From Halococcaceae archaeon (GTDB lineage Archaea; Halobacteriota; Halobacteria; Halobacteriales; Halalkalicoccaceae), in NCBI GenBank assembly GCA_007129135.1, contig SKWB01000117.1, forward strand, positions 1-19,033: a DNA stretch of 19,033 nucleotides, given 5' to 3'. Position 1 is the stretch's first letter; each line of letters begins with the position of its first letter. The translations under genes and the position numbers were made by a program. The notes beneath the pieces are model-generated. The model saw nothing but the letters and a program-made list of their open reading frames with translations, was not told where the DNA came from and did not search any database. This document shows positions 5,855-19,033 of this stretch, piece by piece.

Positions 5855-6742
5855 TCAGGGGTCGAGCGGGACGGGGCCGAACTCGACGGGCGTCTCTTGC
5901 GGGCGGTCGGGGGAGCTGTCGGCCCGCACGGGGTCGGGGTTCGTGATCGCCATCGCCTCCGAGCGGACGCTCTCGTAGAGCCGTTCGGCCCACCGTCGTG
6001 CCTCGTACTCGTCGGTGTCGACGAAGACCGTGAGCGCGCCGCTCCGTCTGTCGTAGCCGCTCACCCCGATCCGGTCGTCGAACAGCGAGAGCCCGAACGG
6101 GACCGACTCACAGAGCGAGAGCTCGGTCGTCCGGCTCTCGATGAGGCTGGCGAGCAGTTCCGGGTGTCCGGAGAGCAGCGACTCGACGACGCCGCGCTCG
6201 TAGAGGAGGTCGGTCCGTCGCCCCTCCTCGATCCGGCTGCGGAGGACGCTCTCGTCGAAGAACTGCACGGACGTCGCGTTGAACTCGCGGAGGCTCTCGC
6301 TCCCGTCGGTGAGCGAGAGGAGCCGGTTGACCGGTCCGAGCGGGGCGCCGGGTTCGGCGACCGTCACCCGGGCGTCCGAGAGCGCATCGACGTCGGTCGC
6401 CGGCGCGTCTGTCGGGATCGTTCGAAGCAGAGGGCGGAGCCTGCGAACCGCATCGGCGCGGTCGACGGCCTCGAGGACGCCACCCGCGACGAGTCTACCC
6501 GCGGTCGTCACGCGGTACTGCTGGCCGCTCCGTTCGATCCAGCCGTACTCCTCGAACTCGCCGAGGATGCGCGCGAGCGTCGGCGCGCTCATCGACGTCG
6601 CCTCCCGGAGGTCGCGTCGGTCGTGCGCCCCCTCCCGGAGCGTGCGGAGGAGCGTCAGCCGGTTCGACGACCGGGCGAGAAACGCCACGTCCTCCAGCGC
6701 CGCCTCCCCCTCCCCCGACTCAGGTGTGATACCGTTTTCCAT
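5855..6742 (-). CDS. Winged-helix regulator with FilR1-type C-terminal domain
   Basis: This is a 295-residue soluble regulator. Residues about 17-90 are a winged helix (ALEDVAFLARSSNRLTLLRTL, then SAPTLARILGEFEEYGWIER). Residues about 125-270 fit the FilR1 middle domain (formerly DUF1724) seen in many archaeal regulators: NATSVQFFDESVLRS, LLYERGVVESLLSGHPE, SLCESVPFGLSLFDDRIGV, VFVDTDEYEARRWAERLYE. The tail is Pro/Asp rich and probably flexible. The ligand and target genes are unknown. A TATA-like taatatc on the minus strand at 6766-6772 puts the transcript start close to the ATG, so the mRNA is probably leaderless. A perfect 12-bp palindrome lies between TATA and start codon and could be an autoregulatory operator. 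Confidence 0.82.
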   Translation of the reverse strand: MENGITPESGEGEAALEDVAFLARSSNRLTLLRTLREGAHDRRDLREATSMSAPTLARILGEFEEYGWIERSGQQYRVTTAGRLVAGGVLEAVDRADAVRRLRPLLRTIPTDAPATDVDALSDARVTVAEPGAPLGPVNRLLSLTDGSESLREFNATSVQFFDESVLRSRIEEGRRTDLLYERGVVESLLSGHPELLASLIESRTTELSLCESVPFGLSLFDDRIGVSGYDRRSGALTVFVDTDEYEARRWAERLYESVRSEAMAITNPDPVRADSSPDRPQETPVEFGPVPLDP

Positions 6743-6759: not shown

Positions 6760-6888
6760 CCGGTAGATATTACCGTTGGGAGTATCGGAATGCTCCATTC
6801 TCACTGACACGTAACGCGACGGGTGAGTTGAGCCCTCGCCTGGTGGGTCAACACTCGGGTAGAACGTAGCCGTACCGGACGAGTGAGC

Positions 6889-6919
6889 CTCGGGAGGTGA
6901 ACGAGTCTCACGGCGTGAA
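6889..6919. promoter_or_regulatory. Outlying copy of the CTCACGSCGTGAG operator
   Basis: TCACGGCGTGA at 6908-6918 is the core of the palindrome found in the three arrays (centre 6913). A weaker match, about 8 of 13 positions, is centred exactly 18 bp away at 6895. The pair lies just past the 3' end of the first zinc-ribbon regulator gene, about 120-150 bp upstream of the FilR1-type gene's TATA box. It may place the FilR1-type gene in the same regulon or be a relic. The strong site is clear; the weak one may be chance. Confidence 0.5.
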
Positions 6920-6923
6920 CGGT

Positions 6924-7865
6924 TCAGCGTTCGACGCCGAGGACACGGAGCTGTTCGTCGTACTGGATCGAGAGCGGCCCCGACTCGGTCGGGAACTCGA
7001 CACGGAGTCGCAACGGGTCGGTCGAGACCACCCGTTCGGAGACGCTCGCGATGTACTCCGGGTTCGACCAGAGCAGCCGCTGGAGTTCGAGGAACGTGTC
7101 GAACTCCCAGCGTTCGGAGAGCGCCGTGATCGTCGCCGGGTGGTAGACCGCGACCAGCCAGAGCACCGCTCGACGCTCGTACCGGCAGTTCCGGCAGGTG
7201 AACGTCGCCCAGATCTCGGGGACGCTCTCACAGCGTTCACAGAGCCCGTCGGGACCGATCGCGTGGTCCTCACAGACCAGCACCTCCGTCCCCGTCCGCG
7301 CCGTACAGGCCGGACAGACCCCCTGGAGCATCATCGCGACGTGGGCCTCGAAGAGGACGTGGGCGGCCTCGACCACCTCCGGGAGCGAGCGATCCGCGAG
7401 CCCGGCGGGTGGAAACGCGTAGTGCATGAAGGCGCCGTCGGGGAGGTCCCCCCCGAGGACGCCCGCGCAGTCGCGACACCGGACGGTGATGTGTTCGTCC
7501 CTGTAGAGGAGCTCGATCGGCGAGCCACAGAACGGACAGGGGCGGCCGGCCTCGACGGGGCCGAGTTCGGGGTCCTCGGTGATCGTCCCGGCGACGACCG
7601 CACGCATCACCTGTGTCCCCGTCTCCCTGAGTTCGTAGCCCTCCTCGCACCGGCGGACGAAGTGTGACAGCTCGCCGAGGTGGTAGTTGAAGTTCCCCTT
7701 GTCCACGCCGACGGCCGCCCGGAGGTCGGAGAAGCTCATCGGCTCCGCCCCCTCCCAGAGCGCCTGCAGGATCGAGATCCGGGTCTCGTTGCCGAGGATC
7801 GAGAACGCCTCGGTGGGCGTCACTCCGCCCGGTTCGATCCGTTCGACTGTCTCCGGTTCCTTCAT
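6924..7865 (-). CDS. ArsR-like regulator with multiple zinc ribbons (paralogue 1)
   Basis: This is a 313-residue protein. Residues about 13-95 are a winged helix of ArsR type (TEAFSILGNETRISILQAL, FSDLRAAVGVDKGNFNYHL, ELSHFV). The rest is Cys-rich: C110-x2-C113 with C130-x2-C133 make one zinc ribbon. C184-x2-C187, C198-x2-H201, C209-x2-C212 and C224-x2-C227 make two more. A C-terminal domain of about 80 residues follows, with an FDTFLELQRLLW helix and a beta section. It could sense metal, redox state or a ligand; the Cys sites may be structural. I chose the ATG at 7863-7865 because similarity to its paralogue at 15162-16112 starts there. Its upstream DNA holds a three-site operator array. The TATA candidates at about 7964-7971 or 7989-7996 imply a 5' leader of 75-100 bases. 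Confidence 0.88.
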   Translation of the reverse strand: MKEPETVERIEPGGVTPTEAFSILGNETRISILQALWEGAEPMSFSDLRAAVGVDKGNFNYHLGELSHFVRRCEEGYELRETGTQVMRAVVAGTITEDPELGPVEAGRPCPFCGSPIELLYRDEHITVRCRDCAGVLGGDLPDGAFMHYAFPPAGLADRSLPEVVEAAHVLFEAHVAMMLQGVCPACTARTGTEVLVCEDHAIGPDGLCERCESVPEIWATFTCRNCRYERRAVLWLVAVYHPATITALSERWEFDTFLELQRLLWSNPEYIASVSERVVSTDPLRLRVEFPTESGPLSIQYDEQLRVLGVER

Positions 7866-8027
7866 GTCTCGCTCCTCGACTCCGGGCCGAACCGATACGT
7901 CGCGTCTCGAAGCCGCCGAGGGCGTCGAATCGGTGTGACCTGCTCCGTGACAGGTTCCCTGCGTGAATATTTCTTGCGGTTCGGTACTCTTATACACGGT
8001 AACGGATCACACCGGCAACCACGTCCG

Positions 8028-8076
8028 CTCACGGCGTGAGAGCTCGTCACGGCGTGAAACCGACTCAGTGGGTGCG
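8028..8076. promoter_or_regulatory. Operator array 1: three 13-bp palindromes at 18-bp spacing
   Basis: Site centres are 8034 (CTCACGGCGTGAG, a perfect 6-1-6 palindrome), 8052 (GTCACGGCGTGAA) and 8070 (CTCAGTGGGTGCG, 9 of 13 to consensus). The centres are exactly 18 bp apart. A TATA-like TTTACT and the block CTGTCCGT follow the last site, an arrangement also seen after array 3. The array lies 163 bp upstream of the first zinc-ribbon regulator on the left and before the lipoprotein unit on the right, so it may serve both. The regulators next to the arrays are the obvious candidate binders, which is an inference. Confidence 0.75.
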
Positions 8077-8387
8077 TTTACTGTCCGTGACTGTCCATCA
8101 TCTGAGAGGAGGGCACACCCGATGCCGCGGCGTGTGTAGATCACCGATATGACAGCCGATCCGATCACACCGACGACTGCCGTCCCCACCCATGGGATCG
8201 CGACGGCCCACCGCGGGCCGATCGGCGAACGGGGGGTCGCCGGGTCGACGCCCGCGACCGTGCCGCCGTCGGTGTCGTTGCCGATCGGGGACGTCCTCTG
8301 GCCGCGTTTCCGAACCGACGGGCATCGCGGCGGCCGAACCGACCCGTCGTTCGTCGGGAACTGTGCAGGGAGTGAGCTCCGGTGGGG
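8077..8387. other. Long leader between array 1 and lipoprotein gene, no firm gene
   Basis: These 311 bases separate the array 1 promoter from the lipoprotein start. A GAGGAGGG ribosome site at about 8104-8111 precedes an ATG at 8122, but the frame ends after five codons (MPRRV). The same frame reopens at ATG 8149 and runs 80 codons to 8391, ending GTGA over the lipoprotein start. Its product is basic and Pro/Thr/Gly rich, unlike its neighbours. On the minus strand, one frame encodes a strongly hydrophobic stretch (WVGTAVVGVIGSAVISVIY) but lacks a good start. The region may be a decayed gene, a structured leader, or a small frameshifted membrane gene. None is well enough supported to call. Confidence 0.4.
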
Positions 8388-9104
8388 GTGAACCGACGGG
8401 CGTACGTGGCGACCGTCGCTGCCGTCGCGGTCGGCGGCTGTGTCGGCACGGACCAGGTCGAAGACCGGGTCCGTGACGAGGTGTCGGAGCGACTGGGAGA
8501 CGAGGCCGAGGAGCTTTCGGGGATAGACGTAGAGGAGACGACGCTCCCGGACGAGCCGCCGGAGGACGCACCGACGGCGGACGAAGAGTGGCGCCTCTAC
8601 GAGTTCGAGGCCGACGAACACTACGAGTACCGCGTTCACAGCCGAGAGGACGGCCCCGGCAGCTTCCACTGGACCGTCAGCGAGGTCGACGGGGATCGGC
8701 TCACCGTCGAGGCTTCGCTGGCGTTCGAGGACGGCGAGGAGTTCTCCCGTACGGTGACCGGCACCGACGAGGAGGTGTTCTCGGAGCTGGTGGCGACGCC
8801 TGCGGCGGTGTTCGTCGCTGCGGGGCTCCACTCGCCGTACGTCACGACCCACGAGGGGGGAGTCTACGAGGGCTACGAGTGGAGCGTCGTCACCTCCGAG
8901 GGGAGTCTGCGGTTCGCGGTCGACGGGACCGACCGTTACCTCGGGATCGAGTGTTACCGCACGGTGACGGAGGTTGACGGGGAGGTCGTCCACGAGAGCT
9001 GTCTCTCGCCCGACCTCGCGTTCCCGGCCGCCGTCGTCTACCGCGACGAGGAGACCGGCGAGGTCGCACTCGAGATGGAACTGATCGAGTACGAACGAAA
9101 CTAG
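8388..9104 (+). CDS. Predicted Tat-exported lipoprotein
   Basis: This is a 238-residue secreted protein. The N-terminus MNRRAYVATVAAVAVGGC shows a twin-Arg, a short hydrophobic segment and a lipobox with Cys18, so it should be exported folded and lipid-anchored outside the membrane. A charged segment (about residues 20-60) tethers a beta-rich domain with repeated patterns such as YEYRVHSRE, WTVSEVDGDRLTVEASL and YRTVTEVDGEVVHESC. Two Cys late in the domain (in IECYR and HESCLS) could pair. I prefer the GTG at 8388 because MNRRAY is a typical haloarchaeal lipoprotein start; GTG 8382 is two codons earlier. It is followed after nine bases by a DUF4870 membrane protein, so the two are likely co-transcribed. 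No family with known function is recognised. Confidence 0.82.
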   Translation: MNRRAYVATVAAVAVGGCVGTDQVEDRVRDEVSERLGDEAEELSGIDVEETTLPDEPPEDAPTADEEWRLYEFEADEHYEYRVHSREDGPGSFHWTVSEVDGDRLTVEASLAFEDGEEFSRTVTGTDEEVFSELVATPAAVFVAAGLHSPYVTTHEGGVYEGYEWSVVTSEGSLRFAVDGTDRYLGIECYRTVTEVDGEVVHESCLSPDLAFPAAVVYRDEETGEVALEMELIEYERN

Positions 9105-9113
9105 AGAACTACC

Positions 9114-9545
9114 ATGAGTACGAAAGAGGCGGACGTCGAAGCGGAACTGACCACAGAGAACACCGAACCGGCGACGGAGGGAGGGACCTCGGTCGGCGGG
9201 CTGGACGAGAACATCGTGGGGGCGTTGGCGTACCTCTTCGCGCCCCTGCTCGCCATCGTCTTCTACTTCATCGAGGAGGACAACGAGTTCGTCCGGTTCC
9301 ACGCGGTCCAGAGCATCATCATCTTCGGGGGGCTGTTCGCGCTGAACATCGGGCTGTTCGTCTTCGGGATCTTCCTCGAGGCGATCCCGATGGTGGGCCT
9401 GCTCTTCGCGCTCGTCACGGGGCTGGTCTCGCTGCTGATGGCCCCGGTGGTCTTCGTGCTGTGGGTCGTGCTGACGTACAAGGCGTACAAGGGCGACACC
9501 GACGGCCTGCCCGTCACCGGGAACATGGCGAAGAACTACGTCTGA
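9114..9545 (+). CDS. DUF4870 (Tic20-like) small membrane protein
   Basis: This is a 143-residue protein. After an acidic N-tail of about 28 residues comes GLDENIVGALAYLFAPLLAI, the polar hairpin EEDNEFVRFHAVQSIIIF, and two further hydrophobic segments (about residues 60-85 and 90-122) ending WVVLTYKAYKG. The N-terminal helix, the FVRFHAVQS motif and the following helices are diagnostic of DUF4870, a family with Tic20-like topology and no settled function. The C-tail PVTGNMAKNYV is cytosolic if the topology is as drawn. The gene follows the lipoprotein gene by nine bases. The 180 bases after it, up to the convergent cobW stop, contain nothing I recognise. Confidence 0.88.
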   Translation: MSTKEADVEAELTTENTEPATEGGTSVGGLDENIVGALAYLFAPLLAIVFYFIEEDNEFVRFHAVQSIIIFGGLFALNIGLFVFGIFLEAIPMVGLLFALVTGLVSLLMAPVVFVLWVVLTYKAYKGDTDGLPVTGNMAKNYV

Positions 9546-9725
9546 GCGCGTCCCACTTTCGCGTCGCATCGGTGCCGGAGAGAGCGATCACGACGGGTTC
9601 GGGAGTCGGTCAGCCGGTCACGGAGAGCCGAACGGGGACCGGGGCGACTGGTGAACCGGAGGAATCGCCCGGACGACACGAAACGGGGGTGATCGAACCT
9701 ACAGAGCGACGGCTACCCGTCCCGA

Positions 9726-10934
9726 TCAGTCGTCGGCGAGGGCCATCTCCAGCTCCTCCTCGGGCGAGAACGGGTCCGGAAACGCCTCCCAGTCGGCCTC
9801 CCACTCCTCGTCGGTGAGCAGACAGTCGTCGAGTCGCTCGACGAGCGCCTCGCGGTCGAGGTCACGGCCGATGAAGACGAGTTCGATCCCGCGGTCGCCC
9901 CACCGCTCGTCCCAGCTCTCTCGGAGTTCGGGGTTACGCTCGAGGTAGACCTGCTGGTGCTCCTCGGGGAGCGTGGCGAGCCACTGTCCGCCCGGGCCCG
10001 CTCTGACGGACTGGCCGGCGACGTTTACGCTCATCGCGATCTCCTCGCGTCCGGCGACCCAGAAGTAGCCCTTCGCGCGGATCACTGCCGGTGGTACATC
10101 GCCGAGGAGGCTCTCGAACCGCTCGGGGTGAAACGGCTCGGGTTTCCGGTAGACGAACGAGTTGACGCCGTGTTCTTCCAGCGCGTCCTCGTGGTGGTGG
10201 CCCTCCTCGAGTTCGTGGATCCAACCCGCCGACCGGTTGGCCGCCTCGAAGTCGAACCGTCCGGTCGCGAGGACCTCCGCCGGGTCGATCTCGCCGTGTT
10301 CCGTCCGGACGATCCTCGCCCGCGGCTGGAGCGTCCGGAGCACCGCCTCGATCGCGTCGAGTTCGTCCTCGGGAACGAGGTCACACTTGTTGAGCAGCAG
10401 GACGTCACAGAACTCGATCTGGTCGAGGGTGACCTCCTCGGGCGGTCTGCCCGGGTCGGCCTCGGTCTCCTCGACGAGCGCCCCGCCGGAGTCGAACGCC
10501 TGCCAGAGCGTGTACGCGTCGACGACCGTCACCGTCGTGTCGAGCGCGTAGACGCCCGTCGGGTCGAACTCGGCGTCCTCGAAGCCGAGGGCGAACGTCT
10601 GGGCGACCGGGATCGGTTCGCTGATCCCCGAGGACTCGACCAGCAGGTAGTCGAACTCGCGCTCCTCGGCGAGGCGACCGACCTCCTCGAGCATATCCCC
10701 GCGCAGGCGACAGCAGATACAGCCGTTCTGGAGTTCGATGACCTCCTCGCCCTCGGCCGAGAGCGTCGACTGGCGTTTCACGTTCTCCGCGTCGACGTTC
10801 ACCTCGCCCATGTCGTTGACGACCACCGCGGCGTTCAGCTCCCTGTCGCTGTTCAGTACGTGGTTCAACACCGTCGTCTTCCCCGCGCCGAGGCTTCCAC
10901 TCAGCACCGTCACCGGGATCGGCTCGCTGCTCAT
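9726..10934 (-). CDS. CobW/COG0523 GTPase metallochaperone (copy 1)
   Basis: This is a 402-residue G3E-family GTPase. It has Walker A GSLGAGKTT (13-21), the metal-binding motif CICC (C72, C74, C75), the switch SSGISEP (101-107) and the guanine specificity motif NKCD (182-185). The CobW C-terminal domain follows (about 258-385; NSFVYRKPEPFHPERF, then WLATLPEEH). COG0523 proteins use GTP to insert or deliver Zn, Co, Fe or Ni to client proteins. A small His cluster (H240, H246-248, H255) sits between the domains. It is divergent from nikR across an AT-rich gap with an inverted repeat, and a second cobW lies 1.5 kb away. The metal is not determinable; zinc-starvation and nickel or cobalt roles are the leading options. 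Confidence 0.9.
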   Translation of the reverse strand: MSSEPIPVTVLSGSLGAGKTTVLNHVLNSDRELNAAVVVNDMGEVNVDAENVKRQSTLSAEGEEVIELQNGCICCRLRGDMLEEVGRLAEEREFDYLLVESSGISEPIPVAQTFALGFEDAEFDPTGVYALDTTVTVVDAYTLWQAFDSGGALVEETEADPGRPPEEVTLDQIEFCDVLLLNKCDLVPEDELDAIEAVLRTLQPRARIVRTEHGEIDPAEVLATGRFDFEAANRSAGWIHELEEGHHHEDALEEHGVNSFVYRKPEPFHPERFESLLGDVPPAVIRAKGYFWVAGREEIAMSVNVAGQSVRAGPGGQWLATLPEEHQQVYLERNPELRESWDERWGDRGIELVFIGRDLDREALVERLDDCLLTDEEWEADWEAFPDPFSPEEELEMALADD

Positions 10935-10962
10935 GGTACGCCAGTAATTAGGAATTCAGGAG

Positions 10963-10982
10963 GTTATAATACTAGTTATTAC
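10963..10982. promoter_or_regulatory. Imperfect palindrome in cobW/nikR divergent promoter
   Basis: The 20 bases have the form GTWATAA-N6-TTATWAC with one mismatched pair, and ACTAG lies inside the spacer. The palindrome sits in the AT-rich gap between the divergent cobW and nikR starts and overlaps TATA-like sequence for either direction, so a bound repressor could silence both. NikR, encoded next door, is the natural candidate. This assignment is inference. Confidence 0.5.
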
Positions 10983-11038
10983 GAAGTTGGGATGCTGTGT
11001 TAACAAACTCTAAGGGCGGCCGTCCCCTACACGGCGTC

Positions 11039-11464
11039 ATGACGGTCGTGAGCATATCGATGCCGGAGGCGTTGCTCGAGCGACTCGACGGGTTCGCCGC
11101 AGAGCACGGCTACTCGGGCCGGAGCGAGGTCGTTCGCGAGGGGACACGGGGGCTGCTCTCGGAGTTCGACGAGCCATCGCTCGAGGGCCGAGAGCTCTCC
11201 GCGGTTGTCACCGCGCTGTTCGACCACGACACCGAACGGATCGAGCGCCGGATGCGTCGGCTCCGGCACGAGCACGAGCCGCTCGTCGCGGCGAACGTCC
11301 ACCAGTGTCTCGGCGACGACCACTGCATGGAGGTGTTCGTCCTCGCTGGCACGTTCGAGTCGATCTCGGCGTTCGTCTCGAAGGTCCGAGCGACGAGCGG
11401 CCTCCACCGCGCCGAGCACTCGATCCTGCCGCTCGACGAGGGGGTTCCGGAGGTGAGGTTATGA
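11039..11464 (+). CDS. nikR: NikR-type metal-responsive regulator (CopG family)
   Basis: This is a 141-residue protein with NikR architecture. A ribbon-helix-helix comes first (about residues 2-42; VVSISMPEALLERLDGFA, then SGRSEVVREGTRGLL). The ACT-like metal domain follows (about 53-135; ELSAVVTALFDHD, then HCMEVFVLAG). Aligned with E. coli NikR by spacing, the ligands H76, H87, H89 and C95 correspond here to H77, H88, C90 and C96. The third His is therefore replaced by Cys, which could change metal preference. NikR represses nickel uptake genes when nickel is bound. The ATG at 11039 begins the family similarity. Its stop overlaps the next gene as ATGA, and the gene heads a likely operon through the second cobW. 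Confidence 0.88.
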   Translation: MTVVSISMPEALLERLDGFAAEHGYSGRSEVVREGTRGLLSEFDEPSLEGRELSAVVTALFDHDTERIERRMRRLRHEHEPLVAANVHQCLGDDHCMEVFVLAGTFESISAFVSKVRATSGLHRAEHSILPLDEGVPEVRL

Positions 11465-12000
11465 GCGAAGGCGTGAGGAGGGTCGCCGACGACCACGACC
11501 ATCCCGAGCTCGCGGTGCTGCGAACGGCGGTCGTCACCGTCTCCTCGTCGCGCTCCTCGGCCGACGACGAGGGTGGCGATGCCATCGCCGCGATCCTCGC
11601 CGACCACGGCCACGAGGCGATCGCTCGCGACCTGGTGGTCGACGACCGGGCGGCGATCGAACGCGTCGTCTCCGAGTACGTGGAGCGCGAGGATATCGAC
11701 TGCGTGATCACCACCGGCGGCACCGGCGTCACCCGCGACGACGTGACGATCGAAGCCGTCCGAGAGCGCTTCGAGAAGGAGCTGCCTGGGTTCGGCGAGC
11801 TGTTCCGGACCCTCTCCTACGAGGAGGTCGGCACGCGGACGGTCGCGACGCGTGCGACGGCGGGGGTCGTCGAGGGCGTCCCGGTCTTCTGCCTGCCCGG
11901 GAGCACGAACGCCGTCTCGCTCGCGACGGAGGAGATCATCGTGGAGGAGGCCCCACATCTCGCGGGGCTGGCGACCCGTCACGACCACGAGGGGGCCTGA
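11461..12000 (+). CDS. moaB: MoaB/MogA-type molybdopterin biosynthesis protein
   Basis: This is a 179-residue protein with the MoaB/MogA fold signature. It has RTAVVTVSSSRS, GHEAIARDLVVDDRAAIERV, DCVITTGGTGVTRDDVTIEAV (TTGGTG at 84-89, followed by conserved acidic residues) and FCLPGSTNAVSLATEE. In molybdenum cofactor synthesis such proteins adenylylate molybdopterin before metal insertion. The N-tail (DDHDHPE) and C-tail (RHDHEGA) carry small His clusters, unusual ornament that fits the metal-linked operon. The ATG overlaps the nikR stop by four bases, and the next gene begins one base after the stop. Why a Moco gene sits under a NikR-like regulator is unclear. It might be a general metal-insertion operon. 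Confidence 0.9.
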   Translation: MSEGVRRVADDHDHPELAVLRTAVVTVSSSRSSADDEGGDAIAAILADHGHEAIARDLVVDDRAAIERVVSEYVEREDIDCVITTGGTGVTRDDVTIEAVRERFEKELPGFGELFRTLSYEEVGTRTVATRATAGVVEGVPVFCLPGSTNAVSLATEEIIVEEAPHLAGLATRHDHEGA

Positions 12001-12001
12001 G

Positions 12002-12394
12002 ATGCAGGGCTCGGCGATGTACCGGGAGCTGATCCTCGATCACTACCGCAGTCCCAGGAAGTGGGGCCGGCTCTCGCCACTCACCTTCTCGCACACGGGA
12101 GAGAACAGCTCCTGTGGCGACGAACTCACGTTCGATGTCGAGTTGAAAGAGGACGACGAGACGATCGAGGAGGTCGCCTTCACCGGTGAGGGCTGTGCGA
12201 TCAGCATCGCGAGCGCGAGCCTGCTCGCCGAGGAGCTCCCGGGGATGACGCTCTCGGAGGTCCGCGCGCTGGATCGGGAGGACGCCCTCGACCTGCTCGG
12301 TATCGAGGTGACGCCGATGCGCGTTCCGTGTGCGGTGCTCGCGGAGAAGGTCGTACAGGACGGCATCGAGGGCTACGAGAGGGACCGAGAGTGA
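12002..12394 (+). CDS. SufU/IscU-type iron-sulfur scaffold protein
   Basis: This is a 130-residue NifU-N/IscU-like protein. It starts MYRELILDHYRSPRKWG, the usual opening of the family, preceded by five residues. The three scaffold cysteines are present: C38 in SSCGDEL (with D40), C65 in GEGCAISIASASLL and C110 in RVPCAVLAEK. Such proteins assemble or relay Fe-S clusters or accept sulfur from a cysteine desulfurase; the SufU branch binds zinc at this site. No desulfurase gene is visible in the window. The insertion that separates SufU from IscU appears short or missing, so I do not choose between the names. It lies one base after moaB and 19 bases before the second cobW. Confidence 0.88.
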   Translation: MQGSAMYRELILDHYRSPRKWGRLSPLTFSHTGENSSCGDELTFDVELKEDDETIEEVAFTGEGCAISIASASLLAEELPGMTLSEVRALDREDALDLLGIEVTPMRVPCAVLAEKVVQDGIEGYERDRE

Positions 12395-12413
12395 CGGAGT
12401 ACACCCCTCATCG

Positions 12414-13730
12414 ATGACGGCCACACGGGACCCCATCCCGGTGACCGTGGTGAGCGGGAGCCTCGGCGCGGGGAAGACGACGTTCGTGAACCACCTGCTC
12501 TCCGAGACCGACCGCCGACTCGCGGTCGTCGTCAACGACGTGGGCGAGCTGAACGTCGACCGGGAGCTGGTCGAACGCCAGATCGAGATGGCAAACTCCG
12601 AGAGCGAGGTGTACGGCCTCGAGAGCGGCTGTATCTGCTGTGGGCTGCAGGGCGAGTTCGAGAACGAGCTCTACCGGCTCGCCCACGACCTGGAGTTCGA
12701 TCACCTGCTCGTCGAGTCCTCGGGGATCAGCGAGCCCGCGCCGATCGCCCGGACGCTCTCGGAGCCGGGTCCCGTCGGGGATCTCTACGGGATCGACGCG
12801 ATGGTCACGGTCGTCGACGCCCCCCGATTCCTCGACGCCTTCGGCGCCGACTCGCGACCGGGACGGTCGGGGCCGGACGGATCCGGGGTCCGACCGCTCT
12901 CGGACCTCACGATCGAGCAGGTCGAGTTCTGTGACGTGCTCGTCGTGAACAAGCGTGACCGGCTCTCGGAGGTCGAGATGGAGCGGGCGGAACGGCTCCT
13001 ACGCTCGCTCCAGTCCGACGCCGCGCTCCACTGGACCGAGTTCGGACGGATCGAGCCCGAGAAACTCCTCGAAAGCGGTAGCTTCGACCTCGAACGGGTG
13101 CACGGCTCCGCCGGCTGGAAACGGGCGATCGAGCACCACGAGGCCCACGCACACGGTCACGACCGGGACCACGGCGAAGCGGGCGAGGGCGATGGTGTAC
13201 ACGATCACGAACAGGGGGTTCACTCGCACGACCACGACGACCACCTTCACCCACCCGAGACCTACGGGATCGACTCGTTTCTCTACCACCGAACCCGGCC
13301 GTTCCACCCCGGGCGGCTGCTCGACTGGCTCCGCGAGCCGCCGGCGGGGGTCGTCCGTTGGAAGGGGTTGCTCTGGGTGGCCGGTCGGGACCGCTACGGT
13401 TTCGACCTGAGCGGCGCAGGCGAAGTGCTACGCGTGTCGATCAACGGGCGGTGGGTCGCGACGCTGCCGTCGTTCCAGCGCGAGGCCCACCGCGAACGAA
13501 ACCCGACGATGCACTGGGACGAGGAGTGGGGTGATCGGGAGAACACGCTCGTCTTCATCGGCACCGACCACGACGAACGGGTGATCACCGACGCGCTCGA
13601 CGGCTGCCTGCTCACCGACGGCGAGATGGACACCGATTGGGAGGCCTTCGAAAACGAGTTCCCACGTCGCCCCGCCGAGGAGCTCGTCGTCGACCGGGAG
13701 GAGCCCGAGCAGGCATCCGGTCCCGACTGA
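12414..13730 (+). CDS. CobW/COG0523 GTPase with His-rich insert (copy 2)
   Basis: This is a 438-residue paralogue of the first cobW. It has Walker A GSLGAGKTT (15-23), CICC (C73, C75, C76), SSGISEP (102-108) and NKRD (179-182). A CobW C-terminal domain starts at about residue 285 (DSFLYHRTRPFHPGRL, then WVATLP). Between the domains, residues 241-279 carry 13 His among many Asp and Glu (for example HHEAHAHGHDRDH and HSHDHDDHLH). This is a metal-storage or metal-capture loop that copy 1 has only in rudimentary form. The insert suggests high-capacity Zn or Ni binding. It is the last gene of the nikR-led run, 19 bases after the scaffold gene. The ATG at 12414 is the first plausible start; the frame is open upstream inside the previous gene. 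Confidence 0.92.
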   Translation: MTATRDPIPVTVVSGSLGAGKTTFVNHLLSETDRRLAVVVNDVGELNVDRELVERQIEMANSESEVYGLESGCICCGLQGEFENELYRLAHDLEFDHLLVESSGISEPAPIARTLSEPGPVGDLYGIDAMVTVVDAPRFLDAFGADSRPGRSGPDGSGVRPLSDLTIEQVEFCDVLVVNKRDRLSEVEMERAERLLRSLQSDAALHWTEFGRIEPEKLLESGSFDLERVHGSAGWKRAIEHHEAHAHGHDRDHGEAGEGDGVHDHEQGVHSHDHDDHLHPPETYGIDSFLYHRTRPFHPGRLLDWLREPPAGVVRWKGLLWVAGRDRYGFDLSGAGEVLRVSINGRWVATLPSFQREAHRERNPTMHWDEEWGDRENTLVFIGTDHDERVITDALDGCLLTDGEMDTDWEAFENEFPRRPAEELVVDREEPEQASGPD

Positions 13731-13737
13731 CCGACAG

Positions 13738-13773
13738 TACTAGCGTATCCGAATTTGCTAGTAACTCTTATTA
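13738..13773 (+). promoter_or_regulatory. Inverted repeat and TATA box before the CooC-like gene
   Basis: TACTAGC (13738-13744) and GCTAGTA (13757-13763) are perfect inverted half-sites with a 12-base spacer. A TATA-like CTTATTA at about 13767-13773 follows, placing the transcript start at the ATG (leaderless). The TACTAG core also occurs in the palindrome before nikR, so both promoters could answer to one regulator, plausibly NikR. Confidence 0.5.
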
Positions 13774-13799
13774 GAAGTGGAAATTAAGATCATATCACC

Positions 13800-14540
13800 A
13801 TGCAGGTATCGAGCGTACGGAACCCTACGATACGTCGGGGAGACGGGAGCCGGGTCGCGTTCGTCGGCGATCCCGACGCGGGTCGGACGACCCTCGCGGC
13901 GCTGTTCGCGGGCCGTCTCGCCGAGCGCGGCGACGCACGGCTGCGAGTGATCGGTGAGGCCGCTTCACTCGTCGACGACGGTGTCACAGCCGGGACCGGT
14001 CTCGTCCCGACCTGGACGGTTCGGGACGCCGACGCCGGTCCCGGAGCACTGGCCGACCTCGCGGGACGGGTCGAGACGGCGTTCCTGGTCGTCACGCCCG
14101 AGGGCGTGGCGGGGATCGAGGCGTACGAACGGGCCGCAGAGCGCCTCGGCGTCGACCTCGCGATCGTCGGCAACCGGTTCAGGAGGGGGGAGATAGACCC
14201 GCTCCGCGAGCACGAAGGTGCACCCGTCTCCGAGTACGTCCCGCCCGAACCGGGGATCGCCGGGGCGATGGCCCGTGGAGAGGGAGCGAAACTCGCCGAC
14301 CGGACGATCGAGCGCCTCGCGGTCGACGCGCTCGCGGACGAAGCGGCCGATCGCGATGGCGCGCTCGAAACACTCGACGCCGGCACCGATCGAACCCTCG
14401 ACGTCGAGGTCGAAACCGAAACCGAAGGACGACGACTCGTCAGGACGATCCGAGAGCGCGGTCACGATGCGGGCTACTACCGCTGTAACTGCCGGTGTCA
14501 CGCCGGCCACGCCCTCGCCCGGTCGGGACGGCCCCTCTAA
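13800..14540 (+). CDS. CooC/MinD-like P-loop protein with Cys-His tail
   Basis: This is a 246-residue protein. It opens with a P-loop-like strand and loop, VAFVGDPDAGRTTLAALFAG, which departs from the usual deviant Walker A KGGxGKT (GDPDAGRTT has no lysine before T). Residues about 95-190 resemble the back half of MinD/CooC proteins: ETAFLVVTPEGVAGIEAYERA, LGVDLAIVGNRF, VSEYVPPEPGIAGAMARGEG. The last 20 residues contain CNCRCHAGH, a compact Cys3-His2 cluster apt for binding a metal. CooC-type ATPases help insert nickel into enzymes. Combined with the neighbouring nikR and cobW genes, a metal-insertion role is reasonable but inferred. With the missing lysine, nucleotide hydrolysis is uncertain. 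It has its own promoter. A tiny hairpin AACGG-AGA-CCGTT follows the stop. Confidence 0.75.
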   Translation: MQVSSVRNPTIRRGDGSRVAFVGDPDAGRTTLAALFAGRLAERGDARLRVIGEAASLVDDGVTAGTGLVPTWTVRDADAGPGALADLAGRVETAFLVVTPEGVAGIEAYERAAERLGVDLAIVGNRFRRGEIDPLREHEGAPVSEYVPPEPGIAGAMARGEGAKLADRTIERLAVDALADEAADRDGALETLDAGTDRTLDVEVETETEGRRLVRTIRERGHDAGYYRCNCRCHAGHALARSGRPL

Positions 14541-14578
14541 CGGAGACCGTTCAGGTACCCTCGGTTCCTCCCCCACTC

Positions 14579-14671
14579 ATGGACGACCCACGCGAGCGGT
14601 GGAACGACCGCTACGCCGACTCGGAGCCCCCGACCGAGCCCACGCCGCTGGTCGAGGCCTATCGCGACCGA
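14579..14671 (+). pseudogene. 5' fragment of a SAM-dependent methyltransferase gene
   Basis: The frame begins MDDPRERWNDRYADSE, then PPTEPTPLVEAYRDRL. This is the start pattern of small class I methyltransferases of the TehB/SAM-binding group (ERW-x-RY, then a Pro-Thr-Glu-Pro segment before the first Rossmann strand). Likeness ends after about 31 residues, before the GxGxG SAM-binding motif, and the sequence switches directly into feoB-like sequence in another frame. It is a stump left by a deletion. The identification is from motif shape, so moderately sure. Confidence 0.6.
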
Positions 14672-15128
14672 CTACGGCCTGCTATCGATGGGCCCCTTCC
14701 TCCTCGTCTGGGCGGGCCCGACGATGCTGCTGTTCTCGGTCGTGCTCGGCGTCTACACACCTCGGGACTCGTGACGCGGATGACCGTCGCGCTCCACCCG
14801 ACGATGCGGCCGGTCGGGCTCACCGGCCGGGACCTGGTTCGAGTGGTGATGGGCTTCGGCTGTAACGTCCCTGACGGTCGTCCTCGCCTCGGTCCGCAAG
14901 GACGGGATCTTCCTCCTCACCGAGGGCGGCGTCGCGCAGGGGCTCACCCCGGTGCAGGTGCTCGTCGCGGTCTACCTCGCGGGCGTCTTGTTACCGTGCC
15001 TCGTGACGGTCTTCACCGTCGCTCGGGAGGTCTCCGTACGGTGGTCGCTCACGATGATGGGGCGTCAGGCCACCGCCGCTGTCGGCTTCGCGATCGCCGT
15101 CGCGTGGATCGGGCGGTCGCTGTTCTGA
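14670..15128 (+). pseudogene. feoB: Decayed feoB fragment (ferrous iron transporter B)
   Basis: Three pieces of the FeoB membrane domain are visible. The first is in frame from 14670: DYGLLSMGPFLLVWAGP, then VVLGVYT, after which the frame hits TGA at 14772. The second continues in a different frame from about 14756: HTSGLVTRMTVALHP, then GLTGRDLVRVVMGFGCNVP, the FeoB gate motif. The third returns to the first frame at about 14870: VLASVRKDGIFLLTEGG, LTPVQVLVAVYLAG, and ends RSLF with TGA at 15126-15128. The N-terminal G domain and first gate are absent. The Cys-rich core that normally follows GFGCNVP is also missing. So there are two frameshifts, an internal deletion and a large 5' loss. FeoB imports Fe(II); this copy cannot. 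Confidence 0.78.
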
Positions 15129-15161
15129 GGGTCCCGAGGCCGGTCGGTCGTCCGAGCGCCC

Positions 15162-16112
15162 TCAGCCCGGTCTCTCGATCTCGACGACGTCGAACGCCTC
15201 GTCGAACGTCAGCCCCAGCCGTCCCGTCTCGGCCGGGAACTCGACGCGAACCCGCAGTGGATCGGTCGAGACCACCTCCTCGGAGATCCCCTCGACGTAC
15301 CCGGGGTTCGTGAAGAAGAGTCGCTGGAGCTCCCGAAAGGTGTCGAAGCCCCAGCGCTCGTAGAAGAGGGCGACCGCCGCCGGGTGGTAGATCGCGGGCA
15401 TCCAGAGCACGGGTCGGGAGGCGGTCCCGCAGTTCCGGCAGGTGAACTCGACGAGGATCTCCGGAACGCGACCGCACGCCTCGCAGAGTCCGTCCGACAC
15501 GATCTCGTGCTCCTCGCAGACGAGTAGCTCGGTCTCGGCCCTCGCGGAGCACTCCGGGCAGACCCCCTGTGCCATCGTCGCGGCGCTCGCCTCGAAGAGC
15601 AGGTGGGCGACCTCCAGCACCTCCGGGAGCGACCGACCCGCGAGCCCCGCGGGCGGGAAGCCGTCGATGCTCATGAAGACGCCGCGCGGGAGGTCCCCCC
15701 CGCTGGTCCCCGCACAGCTCTCACAGCTCGCCATCATCGTCTCGTCCTCGTACCGGAGGGAGATCCCCGAGCCGCAGAACGGACAGGGCCGTCCGATCGG
15801 GACGGGATCGAGCTCGGGGACGTCGGTGATCACACCCGCGAGCACGGCGCGGATCACCTGCTTTCCGGTCTCTCGCAGTTCGTAGCCCTCCTCACCCCGA
15901 CGAACGAAGTGCGACAGCTCGTTCAGATGGTAGTTGAAGTTCCCCTTGTCCACCCCCACAGCACACTGGAGATCCGAGAAGCTCATCGACTCCTCGTCCT
16001 CCCAGAGCGTCTGCAGGATCGAGATCCGGGTCTCGTTGCCGAGGAGCGAGAAGGCCTCCGTGGGCGTCACTCCGCCCGGTTCGATCCCGTCGAACGCTCC
16101 TTCGTCCTCCAT
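15162..16112 (-). CDS. ArsR-like regulator with multiple zinc ribbons (paralogue 2)
   Basis: This is a 316-residue close paralogue of the protein encoded at 6924-7865, collinear over its whole length with small gaps. Over residues 11-95, the winged helix, about 72 of 85 positions are identical by eye. All zinc-ligand pairs are conserved: C110-x2-C113, C130-x2-C133, C185-x2-C188, C199-x2-H202, C210-x2-C213 and C225-x2-C228. The recognition region VGVDKGNFNYHL is identical, so both proteins probably read the same DNA site. The ATG at 16110-16112 begins the similarity. Minus-strand TATA candidates lie near 16193-16199 and 16209-16216. Operator array 2 begins 172 bp upstream, with the lipoprotein genes on its other side, repeating the layout of the first copy. 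Confidence 0.9.
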   Translation of the reverse strand: MEDEGAFDGIEPGGVTPTEAFSLLGNETRISILQTLWEDEESMSFSDLQCAVGVDKGNFNYHLNELSHFVRRGEEGYELRETGKQVIRAVLAGVITDVPELDPVPIGRPCPFCGSGISLRYEDETMMASCESCAGTSGGDLPRGVFMSIDGFPPAGLAGRSLPEVLEVAHLLFEASAATMAQGVCPECSARAETELLVCEEHEIVSDGLCEACGRVPEILVEFTCRNCGTASRPVLWMPAIYHPAAVALFYERWGFDTFRELQRLFFTNPGYVEGISEEVVSTDPLRVRVEFPAETGRLGLTFDEAFDVVEIERPG

Positions 16113-16283
16113 CGTCGGTACCTCGTCGTGGGGTTCGCCGCCGTCCTCCGATCCCGAACCGCGGGAGATTCAGGGTTCTACGCTAGACTGATACATACGA
16201 CGGGCCGTCATATATGTGTTCAGGTAGTGGAAGCTCGCTTCCGGGTGGGTCTCGTGTGGAGACCGCTGACCCCGAACGGGACT

Positions 16284-16350
16284 CTCACGCCGCGAGATGC
16301 TATCACGGCGTGAGCCGCCCTCACGCCGTCGTGTACCCTCACCGGGTAGA
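16284..16350. promoter_or_regulatory. Operator array 2: four 13-bp palindromes at 18-bp spacing
   Basis: Site centres are 16290 (CTCACGCCGCGAG), 16308 (ATCACGGCGTGAG), 16326 (CTCACGCCGTCGT) and 16344 (CTCACCGGGTAGA, weak). Each centre is exactly 18 bp from the next. The last site abuts GTTAGATA, a likely TATA box about 40 bases before the first lipoprotein start. A fifth, poor match sits at 16272. The array separates the second zinc-ribbon regulator from the lipoprotein operon. Confidence 0.75.
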
Positions 16351-16397
16351 GTTAGATACCCGACCTCTCGAAGAAGTGAGAAGAGGAGACGAGCCAG

Positions 16398-17057
16398 GTG
16401 AGGAAACAAGCAACATACGGTCTGTCGGGAGGAGCGGAGAATCGAGTCGAACGTCGGACAGTTCTGTGCGCAGTGGGGGGTATGGGGGTCGCTGGACTCG
16501 CTGGCTGTCTCGGTGACGACGGCGACGATGATCCGCCCGACACTGACGGAGAAAGCGACGATGGGGAGGACGCCTCAGACGAGCCTGGCGACGCTGGCGA
16601 CGACGCCACAGAGGACGACGACGCCTCCGACGACTCGGGAGACGGATCCGGTGACGGGGACGGTGACGACGGCACGGCGGAGCTCACCATCCTGGGTGAG
16701 ACGTACACCAGCAGCGGGAGCGACGTCGGATGTTTCGATGGGGCGACCGAGGACATACTGCGACAGCTGGTCGCGACGTTCGAATCGGATAGTCACGTCG
16801 GGCTCAGTATCGAGACGACGTTCTACGACGACGACTCGGTCCGAGTCTCTCTCGAGGGAGTAGATGTCTCTGCAGTCGACGACGAACACGACGGCAGTGC
16901 GCACTACGCGAGCGTCCTGGAACTCGACGAGATAACGTTCGACATCGATGGGGAGGAGGATTTCGCGTCCGGCACGGTCGATCTGGAACCCTCCAATCCG
17001 GTCGCGAACGAGGGGAGTCCCGAGGGAATCGAAGTGGAGTTCGATATACGGTGTTGA
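16398..17057 (+). CDS. Predicted Tat lipoprotein, Asp-rich, first of three
   Basis: This is a 219-residue protein with ERRTVLCAVGGMGVAGLAGC, a twin-Arg signal and a lipobox with lipidated Cys37. Residues about 40-92 are almost only Asp, Gly, Ser and Glu, an extended acidic tether. The remaining 125 residues form a small beta domain opening AELTILGETYTSS, with Cys112 early and Cys219 as the very last residue (EVEFDIRC), suitable for a disulfide. This layout recalls mycobacterial LpqH-type lipoproteins, but that is analogy. I chose the GTG at 16398; a purine-rich GAGGAG lies ten bases upstream. It follows operator array 2 and a TATA-like GTTAGATA. Its stop overlaps the next start (GTGTTGA). Confidence 0.82.
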   Translation: MRKQATYGLSGGAENRVERRTVLCAVGGMGVAGLAGCLGDDGDDDPPDTDGESDDGEDASDEPGDAGDDATEDDDASDDSGDGSGDGDGDDGTAELTILGETYTSSGSDVGCFDGATEDILRQLVATFESDSHVGLSIETTFYDDDSVRVSLEGVDVSAVDDEHDGSAHYASVLELDEITFDIDGEEDFASGTVDLEPSNPVANEGSPEGIEVEFDIRC

Positions 17058-17956
17058 AACCGATCGGGAGGGACACGCCACCGATACCGGCCCCGAGTAC
17101 CGATCGCAGGAACCGGATCGACCGACGGTGCCTCCTTCGGACACTCGTAGGCGCGGGCATCGCGGGACTCGCCGGCTGTCTCGGAGACGACGGTGACGGG
17201 AGCGGCGACGACGGTACCGGTGGAGACGACGTGGACGGATCGGACGACACCGACGAACCGACCGATGGCGAGGACGCGCCCGAGACGTCCGAGGGGGACG
17301 GCGAGGGCGGCAGCGACGACGAGCCAGCGGGGACGGACACCGACGACGAGGACGAGGCGGTCCACCCGGCGGACCTCGAGATCGACCCCGAGGACGGGTG
17401 GGGGGAACCCTACGACGGTGTCGAGGTACCAGACGACCCGGGTCGCGCGGTGCTCGTGATCGACGGCGAGCGTTTCGAACTCGAGGGGAGTTGTCAGGGT
17501 GGCGAAGTCCACGCCGACGACGAGGACGAGGAACGCGAGATACGCGCCGAACACGGCCACTTCGTGTTCGTCGGGACGTTTCACCCCACGGGCGATGAGG
17601 GCTTCGCCGCGGTGGTCTCACGTATCGTCGGGATCGAGCGGATCTCCGGGACCAGCGACGGCTCCCGGACGGTCGCGGAGTTCGATCAGTTCGCACTGGG
17701 GGGTGGGGACAGCGCCGCGGGGTATCGGTTCCTTCGGTACGGCGACGGCGAGACCGAGAGCGTCGAAGACGACGGGGTCACCGGAGCCGACGAGCCGTTC
17801 GTCCGGATCGATCCATCGGGCGTGATAACCGCAGTCGGCCAGCTCGAGCGCGTCGAATCCGGCGTCGATCCCGAGGCCGATGACGTTCCTCTCGGGCAGT
17901 TCGAGTTCGGCGCGCGCTGTCAGGCCGACTGGGACGAGGAGTGGGGAGAGCAGTGA
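17051..17956 (+). CDS. Predicted Tat lipoprotein, Asp-rich, second of three
   Basis: This is a 301-residue protein. After a long N-region comes DRRCLLRTLVGAGIAGLAGC, with twin-Arg at 25-26 and lipobox Cys43. Residues about 44-103 are an acidic tether of Asp, Gly, Glu and Thr. The beta domain begins AVLVIDGERFELEGSC (Cys148) and ends LGQFEFGARC (Cys290) plus 11 residues, matching the early-Cys and late-Cys plan of its neighbours. The middle section RAEHGHFVFVGTFHPTGDE has His residues that might bind metal. I chose the GTG at 17051 because it overlaps the preceding stop by seven bases; TTG 17054 is an alternative. It is translationally coupled to both neighbours. The function is unknown. Confidence 0.8.
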   Translation: MLKPIGRDTPPIPAPSTDRRNRIDRRCLLRTLVGAGIAGLAGCLGDDGDGSGDDGTGGDDVDGSDDTDEPTDGEDAPETSEGDGEGGSDDEPAGTDTDDEDEAVHPADLEIDPEDGWGEPYDGVEVPDDPGRAVLVIDGERFELEGSCQGGEVHADDEDEEREIRAEHGHFVFVGTFHPTGDEGFAAVVSRIVGIERISGTSDGSRTVAEFDQFALGGGDSAAGYRFLRYGDGETESVEDDGVTGADEPFVRIDPSGVITAVGQLERVESGVDPEADDVPLGQFEFGARCQADWDEEWGEQ

Positions 17957-18729
17957 GCAGCGACGAGAGCGGCCGAACACGAGAGAGCCGACCACCGAGA
18001 ACACCGATGACAGGATCCAACCGGAACGAGCGGACCACGAAACGAATCGACCGACGAAGAGTCCTCGGGGCACTGGGTGTCGCGGGCATCGCTGGGCTCA
18101 CGGGCTGTCTCGGAGGTGACGAGGACAGTGGTGGGGCGGACGCGGACGGCGAGGACGACCGTCAGGACGACGAAGTGGACGACGACTCCGAAGCGGACGA
18201 CGGAGACGCCGACACCGACGACGGAGCGAACGGCGACGACGACGCGAACGGCGGTGACGACGACCCGTATCTCCGCGAGGAGCTGGAGAACGCGATCGAG
18301 AACCTCGAGGCCCCGGAGCCGGGGTCCGCCGTCGTGGTTTTCGAGAACGACGGAGAGTACCACACAGAGGATATCGAGTGTGGTGCTGACAGCGCCGATC
18401 CCGACGACCCCGAGAAGGGTACCGCTGAGGGCGTCTTCGAGTTCGACGACGGCGAGGCGTTCAGCGTCGAACTGAGCAGGGGCGACGACCTCGAGGACCT
18501 CCAGAACACGATCACCCTCACCGTACCGAACCCCGACGAGGACAGCCAGTTCGAGGAGGCCGCAGTCCCTCGGAGCATGCGCCCCATCAAACCCGAGGAG
18601 GGTGCGGAGGGACGGTCGGCGTTCGTCATCAGGGATGCCGAGACGTGGTACGGCGGCATCGGGTTCGACCTCTCGGATCAGGAGGGCGTCGACTACGGCG
18701 AGACGTGGGTCGCGGTGACCTGTGCGTGA
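17953..18729 (+). CDS. Predicted Tat lipoprotein, Asp-rich, third of three
   Basis: This is a 258-residue protein if started at the GTG that overlaps the previous stop as GTGA; the ATG at 18007 would give a 240-residue form with a shorter N-region. The signal is IDRRRVLGALGVAGIAGLTGC with lipobox Cys52, numbered from the GTG. Residues about 53-104 are the acidic tether. The domain begins AVVVFENDGEYHTEDIEC (Cys143) and ends ETWVAVTCA (Cys257), again one early and one terminal Cys. It lacks other motifs I know. It completes a three-gene overlapping run driven from array 2. After the stop, ACCCAGC and GCTGGGT (18737-18773) could form a weak hairpin. Confidence 0.8.
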   Translation: MSSDESGRTRESRPPRTPMTGSNRNERTTKRIDRRRVLGALGVAGIAGLTGCLGGDEDSGGADADGEDDRQDDEVDDDSEADDGDADTDDGANGDDDANGGDDDPYLREELENAIENLEAPEPGSAVVVFENDGEYHTEDIECGADSADPDDPEKGTAEGVFEFDDGEAFSVELSRGDDLEDLQNTITLTVPNPDEDSQFEEAAVPRSMRPIKPEEGAEGRSAFVIRDAETWYGGIGFDLSDQEGVDYGETWVAVTCA

Positions 18730-18791
18730 GGAGCCGACCCAGCGTCGCCTCCTGGCCGAGCCACTGGCTGGGTATCGCGTCCCGATCCGAT

Positions 18792-18840
18792 TCCACACCG
18801 TGAAATCCTCTCTCGCCGTCTGATCCTCTCAGCGGGTGCG
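18792..18840. promoter_or_regulatory. Operator array 3: three 13-bp palindromes at 18-bp spacing
   Basis: Site centres are 18798 (TCCACACCGTGAA), 18816 (CTCTCGCCGTCTG, 10 of 13) and 18834 (CTCAGCGGGTGCG). They are again exactly 18 bp apart. The last site differs by one base from the last site of array 1, and both are followed by a TATA-like element and CTGTCCGT. Here the TATA candidate is GTTAGGTA at 18841-18848, 30 bases before the lipoprotein ATG at 18878. No regulator gene lies beside this array within the window. Confidence 0.68.
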
Positions 18841-18877
18841 GTTAGGTACTGTCCGTTCCTGGAGAGGTAAGAGGGTA

Positions 18878-19033
18878 ATGAGATCGTTACATCACGACGG
18901 AAGGGGCCGAGGAAGGCGTGCCCGGAGACGGGCGGTCATCCGAGCGGTCGGCGTCGCGAGCGTTCCGCTGATCGCGGGCTGTCTCGGCGACGAGACTGGT
19001 GACGACGACCCGGGTGACGACGCGGCTGAGGAC
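18878..19033 (+). CDS. Predicted Tat lipoprotein, N-terminal part
   Basis: Fifty-two codons are visible before the window ends. An arginine-rich N-region (RGRGRRARRR) is followed by AVIRAVGVASVPLIAGC, a short hydrophobic core and lipobox Cys35. LGDETGDDDPGDDAAED, the start of an acidic tether, comes next. It is a fourth member of the lipoprotein set, with its own operator array and promoter rather than being coupled to the previous gene. The ATG at 18878 is preceded by a purine-rich GAGGTAAGAGGG. Confidence 0.75.
   Translation, partial: MRSLHHDGRGRGRRARRRAVIRAVGVASVPLIAGCLGDETGDDDPGDDAAED

Follow-up and report, generated by a model that had tools for sequence, protein, structure and literature searches.

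Tandem 13-bp palindromes repeated with a step of exactly 18 bp stand before lipoprotein and regulator genes in a 19,033-nucleotide stretch of DNA from a Halococcaceae archaeon (contig SKWB01000117.1; hereafter the window), one contig of a 2.7-Mb draft genome that comprises 400 contigs and is 70.9 % complete. These arrays are in all likelihood real, conserved and regulatory. Sequence comparison further suggests that they are probably promoter-registered operators of a winged-helix regulator of the FilR1/HVO_A0261 family (FilR), which would be loaded cooperatively and act on TFB/TBP. The geometry of the arrays, their conservation, their register with the TATA box and their link to filR, lp1 (lipoprotein) and tm (membrane protein) genes are observed directly.

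A sequence-only reading of the window had placed ten palindrome centres in three arrays with a constant 18-bp step. All ten were recovered where it had put them and in exact register, the best site being CTCACGGCGTGAG. The same reading had the arrays end just before a TATA-like element, and the gap is indeed 0–1 bp at all three, although the elements themselves are non-canonical. It had missed a fourth array (6913/6895), which lies before the gene at 5858–6742, that is filR. Sites were scored by the number of letters matching the 12-letter consensus CTCACGnCGTGAG, which makes the score partly circular.

Array 1: 8028..8076, plus strand, before lp1; centres 8034/8052/8070 score 12/10/8, the last being degenerate.
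TATA-like element TTTACTG: 8077..8083, plus strand, abutting array 1; read directly, in the same register as in other genera.
Array 2: 16284..16350, plus strand, upstream of lpA; centres 16290/16308/16326/16344 score 11/11/9/7.
TATA-like element TTAGATAC: 16352..16359, plus strand, 1 bp past array 2; read directly.
Array 3: 18792..18840, plus strand, before lpD; centres 18798/18816/18834 score 8/9/8, weak palindromes.
TATA-like element TTAGGTAC: 18842..18849, plus strand, 1 bp past array 3; read directly.
Array 4: 6871..6919, minus strand, upstream of filR; centres 6913 and 6895, with a very degenerate third (6877).

At least 10 of the 12 consensus letters are reached by only four of the ten listed sites (8034, 8052, 16290 and 16308); arrays 1 and 2 each have a degenerate site next to the TATA-like element, and all sites of array 3 are weak. 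With consensus scoring, the best step-18 triples of the window reach 31/36 and 30/36 as against at most 25/36 at the other 29 steps, while array 3 alone, with 25/36, does not stand out from other steps. The pattern TCACGNCGTGA-N7-TCACGNCGTGA, allowing up to three mismatches, matches the window four times where shuffles give an expectation of 0.01. This relaxed double-site pattern finds six places in the whole draft genome, four of them in the window, and its reversed control none. A motif-free statistic of palindromic triples also gives step 18 as the best in the window (31/36), but 100 simulated windows average 28.7 and reach 31 at most, which leaves the motif-free significance of the step borderline in the window alone. 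It is conservation, and not the window-only statistic, that decides whether the arrays are real.

Within the genus, two congeners (G008 and G009) carry arrays in the corresponding regulator/lipoprotein and filR intergenic regions. The lp1 promoter of G009 contains CTCACGGCGTGAG-N5-GTCACGGCGTGAA, identical to the first two sites of array 1; the lp1 array of G008 is weaker than that of the window, with one site of 11/12 followed by degenerate second and third sites. Before lpC, G008 has CTCACGCCGCGAG-N5-ATCACGGCGTGAG, which is nearly identical to array 2, and the promoter of its lpB-like gene resembles that of array 3 with two better sites (9 and 11). G008 has the counterpart of array 4 upstream of filR, and G009 has it upstream of a partial filR gene at the end of a contig. 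The loss of the sites from genomes that keep the neighbouring genes had been named as an outcome that would speak against the arrays; instead they are kept in both congeners, and 10 further genera have strict pairs, defined as two TCA-N5-TGA units with at least 11 of 12 letters.

Across 391 Halobacteria genomes, an array search allowing one mismatch matched six genomes, partly in coding sequence. The match in G375 precedes an lp1 homologue adjoining a FilR-type gene. By eye, L017, L018 and L073 are chance or coding matches inside a transferase-like gene and L074 falls in a coding repeat; these were rejected as arrays. Homologues of lp1 were found in 47 of the 391 genomes, and 30 of their loci (two from the genus, 28 from others) were fetched with 1.5-kb flanks. 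Outside the genus, an array is present at 4 of the 7 loci that have filR inside these flanks vs 0 of the 21 that do not; all four loci with a clear 18-bp pair carry filR, and a DUF7351 regulator gene was detected at none of them. In 25 sequences (20 further regions, G375, the genus itself and the window), 24 strict pairs have step 18 vs a total of six at the other steps of 14–30. After removal of duplicates, 42 stretches hold 37 distinct strict pairs at step 18 vs nine in total at the other 17 steps of 13–30; as these stretches were chosen for the filR/tm/lp1 module, and some for arrays already seen, the evidence lies in the contrast between steps and not in the raw count. The step-18 pairs span 17 genomes, 11 genera and five families (f1, f4, f5, f6 and f8). 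Each position of the core TCA-N5-TGA carries more than 1.6 bits, as it must by selection, and the centres of the units are rich in C and G. Outside the genus the module was examined at 19 loci with a FilR gene: a filR, tm or lp1 promoter carries a strict array at 11 of them and a weak one at three, and five have no array.

The promoters of tm homologues, which are present in 82 of the 391 genomes, offer a sample that was picked purely by the downstream gene and not by the motif. It comprises 59 promoters out of 72 listed places below the best-scoring ones (12 already seen and the weakest match were left out, and two further tm places in G008 lie outside it). A strict pair at step 18 occurs in six of these 59, as compared with a mean of 0.14 and a maximum of 1 for the other 28 steps; perfect pairs number four at step 18 and zero at every other step. 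L305 and L316, which are among the six, are similar to arrays seen earlier in G104. A separate set of 29 tm promoters (28 from the best-scoring loci and a second copy in the window's own genome) brings the total to 88, of which 20 contain TATAA[TC] 30 bp or more ahead of the match and were aligned on that string alone. In this profile TGA recurs at −40 (8 promoters), −22 (6) and −4 (6), against an expectation of 0.33 per offset; TCA does so at −66 (5), −48 (5) and −30 (9), against an expectation of 0.30. The 18-bp ladder is locked to the TATA box, and its last unit ends 0–1 bp before it, over the position of the B recognition element (BRE). In the window, L214 and L216, the array before filR stands at a somewhat different distance from TATA, which may reflect a different logic for autoregulation.

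The genes that recur with the arrays are represented in the window by the following three.

filR: 5858..6742, minus strand, winged-helix regulator (Pfam HVO_A0261_N 8.8e-26, FilR1_middle 1.7e-23); proposed binder of the arrays.
lp1: 8382..9104, plus strand, Tat-type lipoprotein, judged by eye from its RR motif and lipobox; no match to any Pfam family at 0.001.
tm: 9114..9545, plus strand, small membrane protein downstream of lp1, with a weak DUF4870 match (E 0.0087, below the cut-off; its homologue at L221 gives 1.2e-8, above it).

A FilR-family gene is the regulator common to most array loci. The protein from the window matches HVO_A0261_N with 90.1 bits and FilR1_middle with 83.5 bits (Pfam cut-offs 35 and 27); a PDB sequence search gave one weak match, which is not a regulator, and an NCBIfam search only weak helix-turn-helix (HTH) matches below the cut-off. 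Among the matches listed, an array is present in 7 of the 10 tm promoters that have a FilR-clade gene no more than 1 kb away vs 4 of the 78 that have none so close (Fisher 5e-6), and with a stricter threshold in 4 of 10 vs 3 of 78 (0.003), p-values that are optimistic as related species are not independent. Two of the four array promoters without FilR in 1 kb (L305 and L339) have one about 3 kb away. The promoter of filR itself holds a pair in the window, L214, L216 and L107. In 30 FilR-clade promoters, again among the matches listed, strict pairs number seven at step 18, four at 19, one at 17 and none at the other steps of 12–30; several of these promoters had already been seen, with L366 as an additional step-18 case. 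Of the ten promoters inspected next, nine (L370, L371, L373, L374 and L376–L380) have their best triple at step 19 (12–16 of 18, one tie); L374 and L376 are weak and five have the array at an identical distance from the gene. In a midpoint-rooted FastTree phylogeny of 94 FilR sequences, some of them fragments of one gene, those step-19 cases that are present all lie in a single subclade of the array-bearing clade, with which the FilR of the window and its congeners also group (0.865). In the other main clade a strict pair was seen solely at a paralogue from the window's own genome, on contig C135, where three sites at 18-bp steps precede TATAACC (L108, about 800–848).

The model that these data suggest can be put as follows. 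FilR dimers, in the window those of the protein encoded at 5858–6742, would bind each 13-bp palindrome through its core TCA-N5-TGA, and neighbouring dimers 18 bp apart would interact so that two to four of them load cooperatively. Since the last site ends 0–1 bp before the TATA box and covers the BRE, the loaded array could contact TFB/TBP directly and thereby activate the lipoprotein and membrane-protein operons, while FilR would control its own gene too. The identity of the binder, the cooperativity and the sign of regulation are inferred from sequence comparison. Activation is slightly favoured over repression because the TATA register is fixed and the TATA/BRE elements of the window are weak; repression is allowed for because the array overlaps the BRE.

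The sequence-only reading had expected lipoprotein genes as targets. Such genes do lie downstream of the arrays, but so do DUF4870-like membrane-protein genes and filR itself. A pattern search in eight module-bearing genomes gave 22 places, 12 of them before filR, tm, lp1 or other lipoprotein genes. Three of the 12 (G104:C13, G252:C1:1857855 and G334:C1:1743342) precede tm homologues far from filR and lp1, and at G104:C13 four sites are followed by TATAACC. An array at a promoter that has no regulator gene linked to it implies that the protein acts in trans.

A number of observations weigh against FilR as the reader of these arrays. The 29 promoters of the tm homologues closest to that of the window have no array, the second own-genome copy (L350) included, and in the stretches fetched both filR and array are missing from the closest lp1 clusters (G217:C92, G310 and G410). 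Ten of the 22 places found with the relaxed pattern in the eight genomes lie elsewhere, three of these being unexamined. Five FilR-bearing module loci lack an array, and the array-bearing clade includes array-less members, e.g., L204, L210, L217, L360 and L364. The C135 paralogue has an array and yet sits outside that clade, and the FilR of the window falls outside the subclade formed by the module FilRs of other genera (mostly 30–39 % identity). Finally, 56 further FilR-like promoters show no clear general 18-bp signal; what there is, is weak and mixed with steps 12, 15 and 36, and for this reason a step-18 signal is not claimed for all FilR-like promoters.

The alternative that survives best keeps FilR and its operator and makes them purely repressive: the loaded array would cover the BRE and exclude TFB, with negative autoregulation of filR. 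This is quite plausible, if on balance not what we expect. The last site overlaps the BRE position, filR bears its own array, and the bacterial IclR family has repressors as well as activators (PMC8222616, which like the other papers cited here is represented by extracts). However, a TATA register that stays fixed across many genera is characteristic of activators more than of repressors, tight constraints on position having been reported for archaeal Lrp activators (PMC2995911) and for GvpE (PMC4390858), and the BRE-proximal site is degenerate in arrays 1 and 2.

A more specific form of the FilR model sees the array as a helical loading track, on which FilR dimers are added in units of 18 bp (19 in the related subclade) and the winding oligomer docks end-on onto TFB/TBP, standing in for the BRE. 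The step of 18 bp is about 1.7 helical turns and departs from the two or three turns reported for archaeal Lrp proteins (PMC2995911), so that an oligomer winding along the DNA is conceivable. In this full form the idea is unlikely; if true, it would amount to an archaeal promoter-locked activation from multiple sites, with the unit length set per regulator subfamily.

The zinc-ribbon regulators of the DUF7347–DUF7351 type, which the sequence-only reading had put forward as binders, are encoded next to two of the arrays.

reg1: 6924..7877, minus strand, DUF7347-DUF7351 protein (ArsR-like HTH; DUF7351 2e-35), divergent from lp1; an open reading frame (ORF) start at 7997 is possible.
reg2: 15162..16112, minus strand, DUF7347-DUF7351 regulator (DUF7351 9.9e-34), divergent from lpA.

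That they bind the arrays of the genus, alone or in competition with FilR, appears distinctly doubtful. The case for them, which counts against FilR, is that the genus arrays adjoin DUF7351 genes: in the three genomes of the genus, reg1, reg2 and a paralogue in G009 are each transcribed away from a lipoprotein promoter that carries an array, and a motif-free test of 35 DUF7351 upstream regions, four of them the genus loci, peaks at step 18 (7 vs a mean of 0.8). Upstream of DUF7351 genes, however, strict pairs are confined to the genus loci and occur neither at 27 DUF7351 relatives from other genomes nor at five own-genome paralogues; in other genera arrays occur beside FilR-family genes, with no DUF7351 gene detected at these loci, and the array before filR belongs to no DUF7351 promoter. 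The earlier proposal is therefore not borne out, and DUF7351 proteins are rejected as general binders, the step-18 rise in the motif-free test being untraced beyond four of the 35 regions. Of the two candidates, FilR is the more likely binder.

It is highly improbable that the repeats have no regulatory role and merely reflect recent tandem duplications or a small repeat element in paralogous promoters: arrays 2 and 3 do belong to similar lipoprotein genes and the window-only motif-free statistic is borderline, but the sequences vary from unit to unit and from genus to genus, and in five families the core TCA-N5-TGA, the step of 18 bp and the register with TATA are nonetheless kept, four of the six own-genome pattern places fall in this window, and the TATA-aligned profile already contradicts it.

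Among described systems, the nearest known kind is the tandem palindromes of the IclR family. Bacterial IclR regulators, which bind as dimers or tetramers, have predicted tandem palindromes 18–22 nt apart, mainly 19–21 nt (PMC8222616), a range that includes the step of 18 bp seen here and that of 19 in the related FilR subclade. The better sites of the window also fit the 7-3-7 boxes GKTYCRY-W3/4-RYGRAMC given in these extracts, with 4–7 of 7 letters per half at 8034, 8052, 16290, 16308, 18798 and 6913 (background 2.82; degenerate sites mostly 3–4). HTH_IclR is above its cut-off for the FilR of L201 (9.9e-8; 32.1 vs 22 bits) and, with 17.9 bits, below it for that of the window. The arrays differ from the IclR ones in being exactly 18 bp in step, of two to four sites and locked to an archaeal TATA box, and three FilR proteins, searched at E up to 10, show no IclR effector domain; because this domain is missing the FilR proteins are not filed as IclR. 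The sequence-only reading had pointed to no described haloarchaeal regulon with this geometry; the step itself has a bacterial parallel. Neither an array of this kind nor an operator for the FilR1/HVO_A0261 family is described among the literature matches listed, in which subscription journals are thinly covered.

FilR1 of Methanosaeta harundinacea combines a winged helix, the PF08350 middle domain and the C-terminal REC domain of a two-component system (PMC3991700, PMC5847659). The FilR of the window shares the first two but, at E up to 10, gives no match to REC. Neither 'palindrom' nor 'footprint' occurs in the main text of PMC3991700. Three other systems resemble the arrays in placement and not in geometry. 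The activator site of GvpE in haloarchaeal gas-vesicle promoters directly adjoins the BRE and its close spacing is essential, but GvpE is a leucine-zipper-like protein with a single 20-nt upstream activating sequence (two 8-nt boxes) per promoter and no 18-bp array (PMC4390858, extracts). Archaeal Lrp proteins bind as cooperative dimers to regularly spaced sites, one of them beside the BRE, and wrap DNA; they belong to another family and use two or three helical turns on one face, as opposed to 1.7 turns here (PMC2995911). CsmR of Haloferax volcanii recognizes TATCA(N4)TGATA beside the TATA box, with the half-site TCA/TGA, but is a 13-kDa protein with an Lrp/AsnC-like HTH and a single motif, no 18-bp array being given in the extracts (PMC13286277). 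What is new here is the unusually rigid, TATA-locked 18-bp geometry among tandem-palindrome operators.

FilR1/HVO_A0261 is a large haloarchaeal regulator family: relatives of one subclade occur in 160 of the 391 genomes at E 1e-30 or better, and the window's draft genome has nine PF08350 matches. The arrays would provide its first testable DNA code, consisting of the targets filR, lp1 and tm, a spacing rule of 18 (19 in the related subclade) and the TATA register. They would also allow one to ask cleanly whether a regulator placed over the BRE activates or represses in archaea.

The remaining lipoprotein genes of the window follow arrays 2 and 3.

lpA: 16398..17057, plus strand, Tat-type lipoprotein downstream of array 2; ORF, lipobox by eye.
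lpB: 17051..17956, plus strand, Tat-type lipoprotein overlapping lpA; ORF, lipobox by eye.
lpC: 17941..18729, plus strand, Tat-type lipoprotein overlapping lpB; ORF, lipobox by eye.
lpD: 18878..19033, plus strand, start of a further lipoprotein gene past array 3, cut by the window end; read directly.

Elsewhere in the window, ORFs at 9726–10934 and 12330–13730 resemble two CobW-type GTPases, with a presumably NikR-like ORF between them; none of these was found in the fetched stretches of G008 and G009. A small ORF of 80 aa (8149–8391) occupies the interval of 300 bases that separates lp1 from array 1. By eye, a similar sequence is not at that place in G008 and is present in G009.

The tm-lp1-lpA clusters most like that of the window (L219 at G217:C92, L112 and L113) show no filR and no array in the fetched stretches, and a second cluster of G217 (G217:C46) has both. 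At G104:C13 (L221/L259) the four-site array lies between the DUF4870-like gene and a divergent gene, presumably AIM24-like, and no filR was found in the stretch. A double site also separates a FilR paralogue from a gene that looks like one for a beta-helix surface protein, at L229 (G334:C1:1241169); a gene of similar appearance is found near filR in G375.

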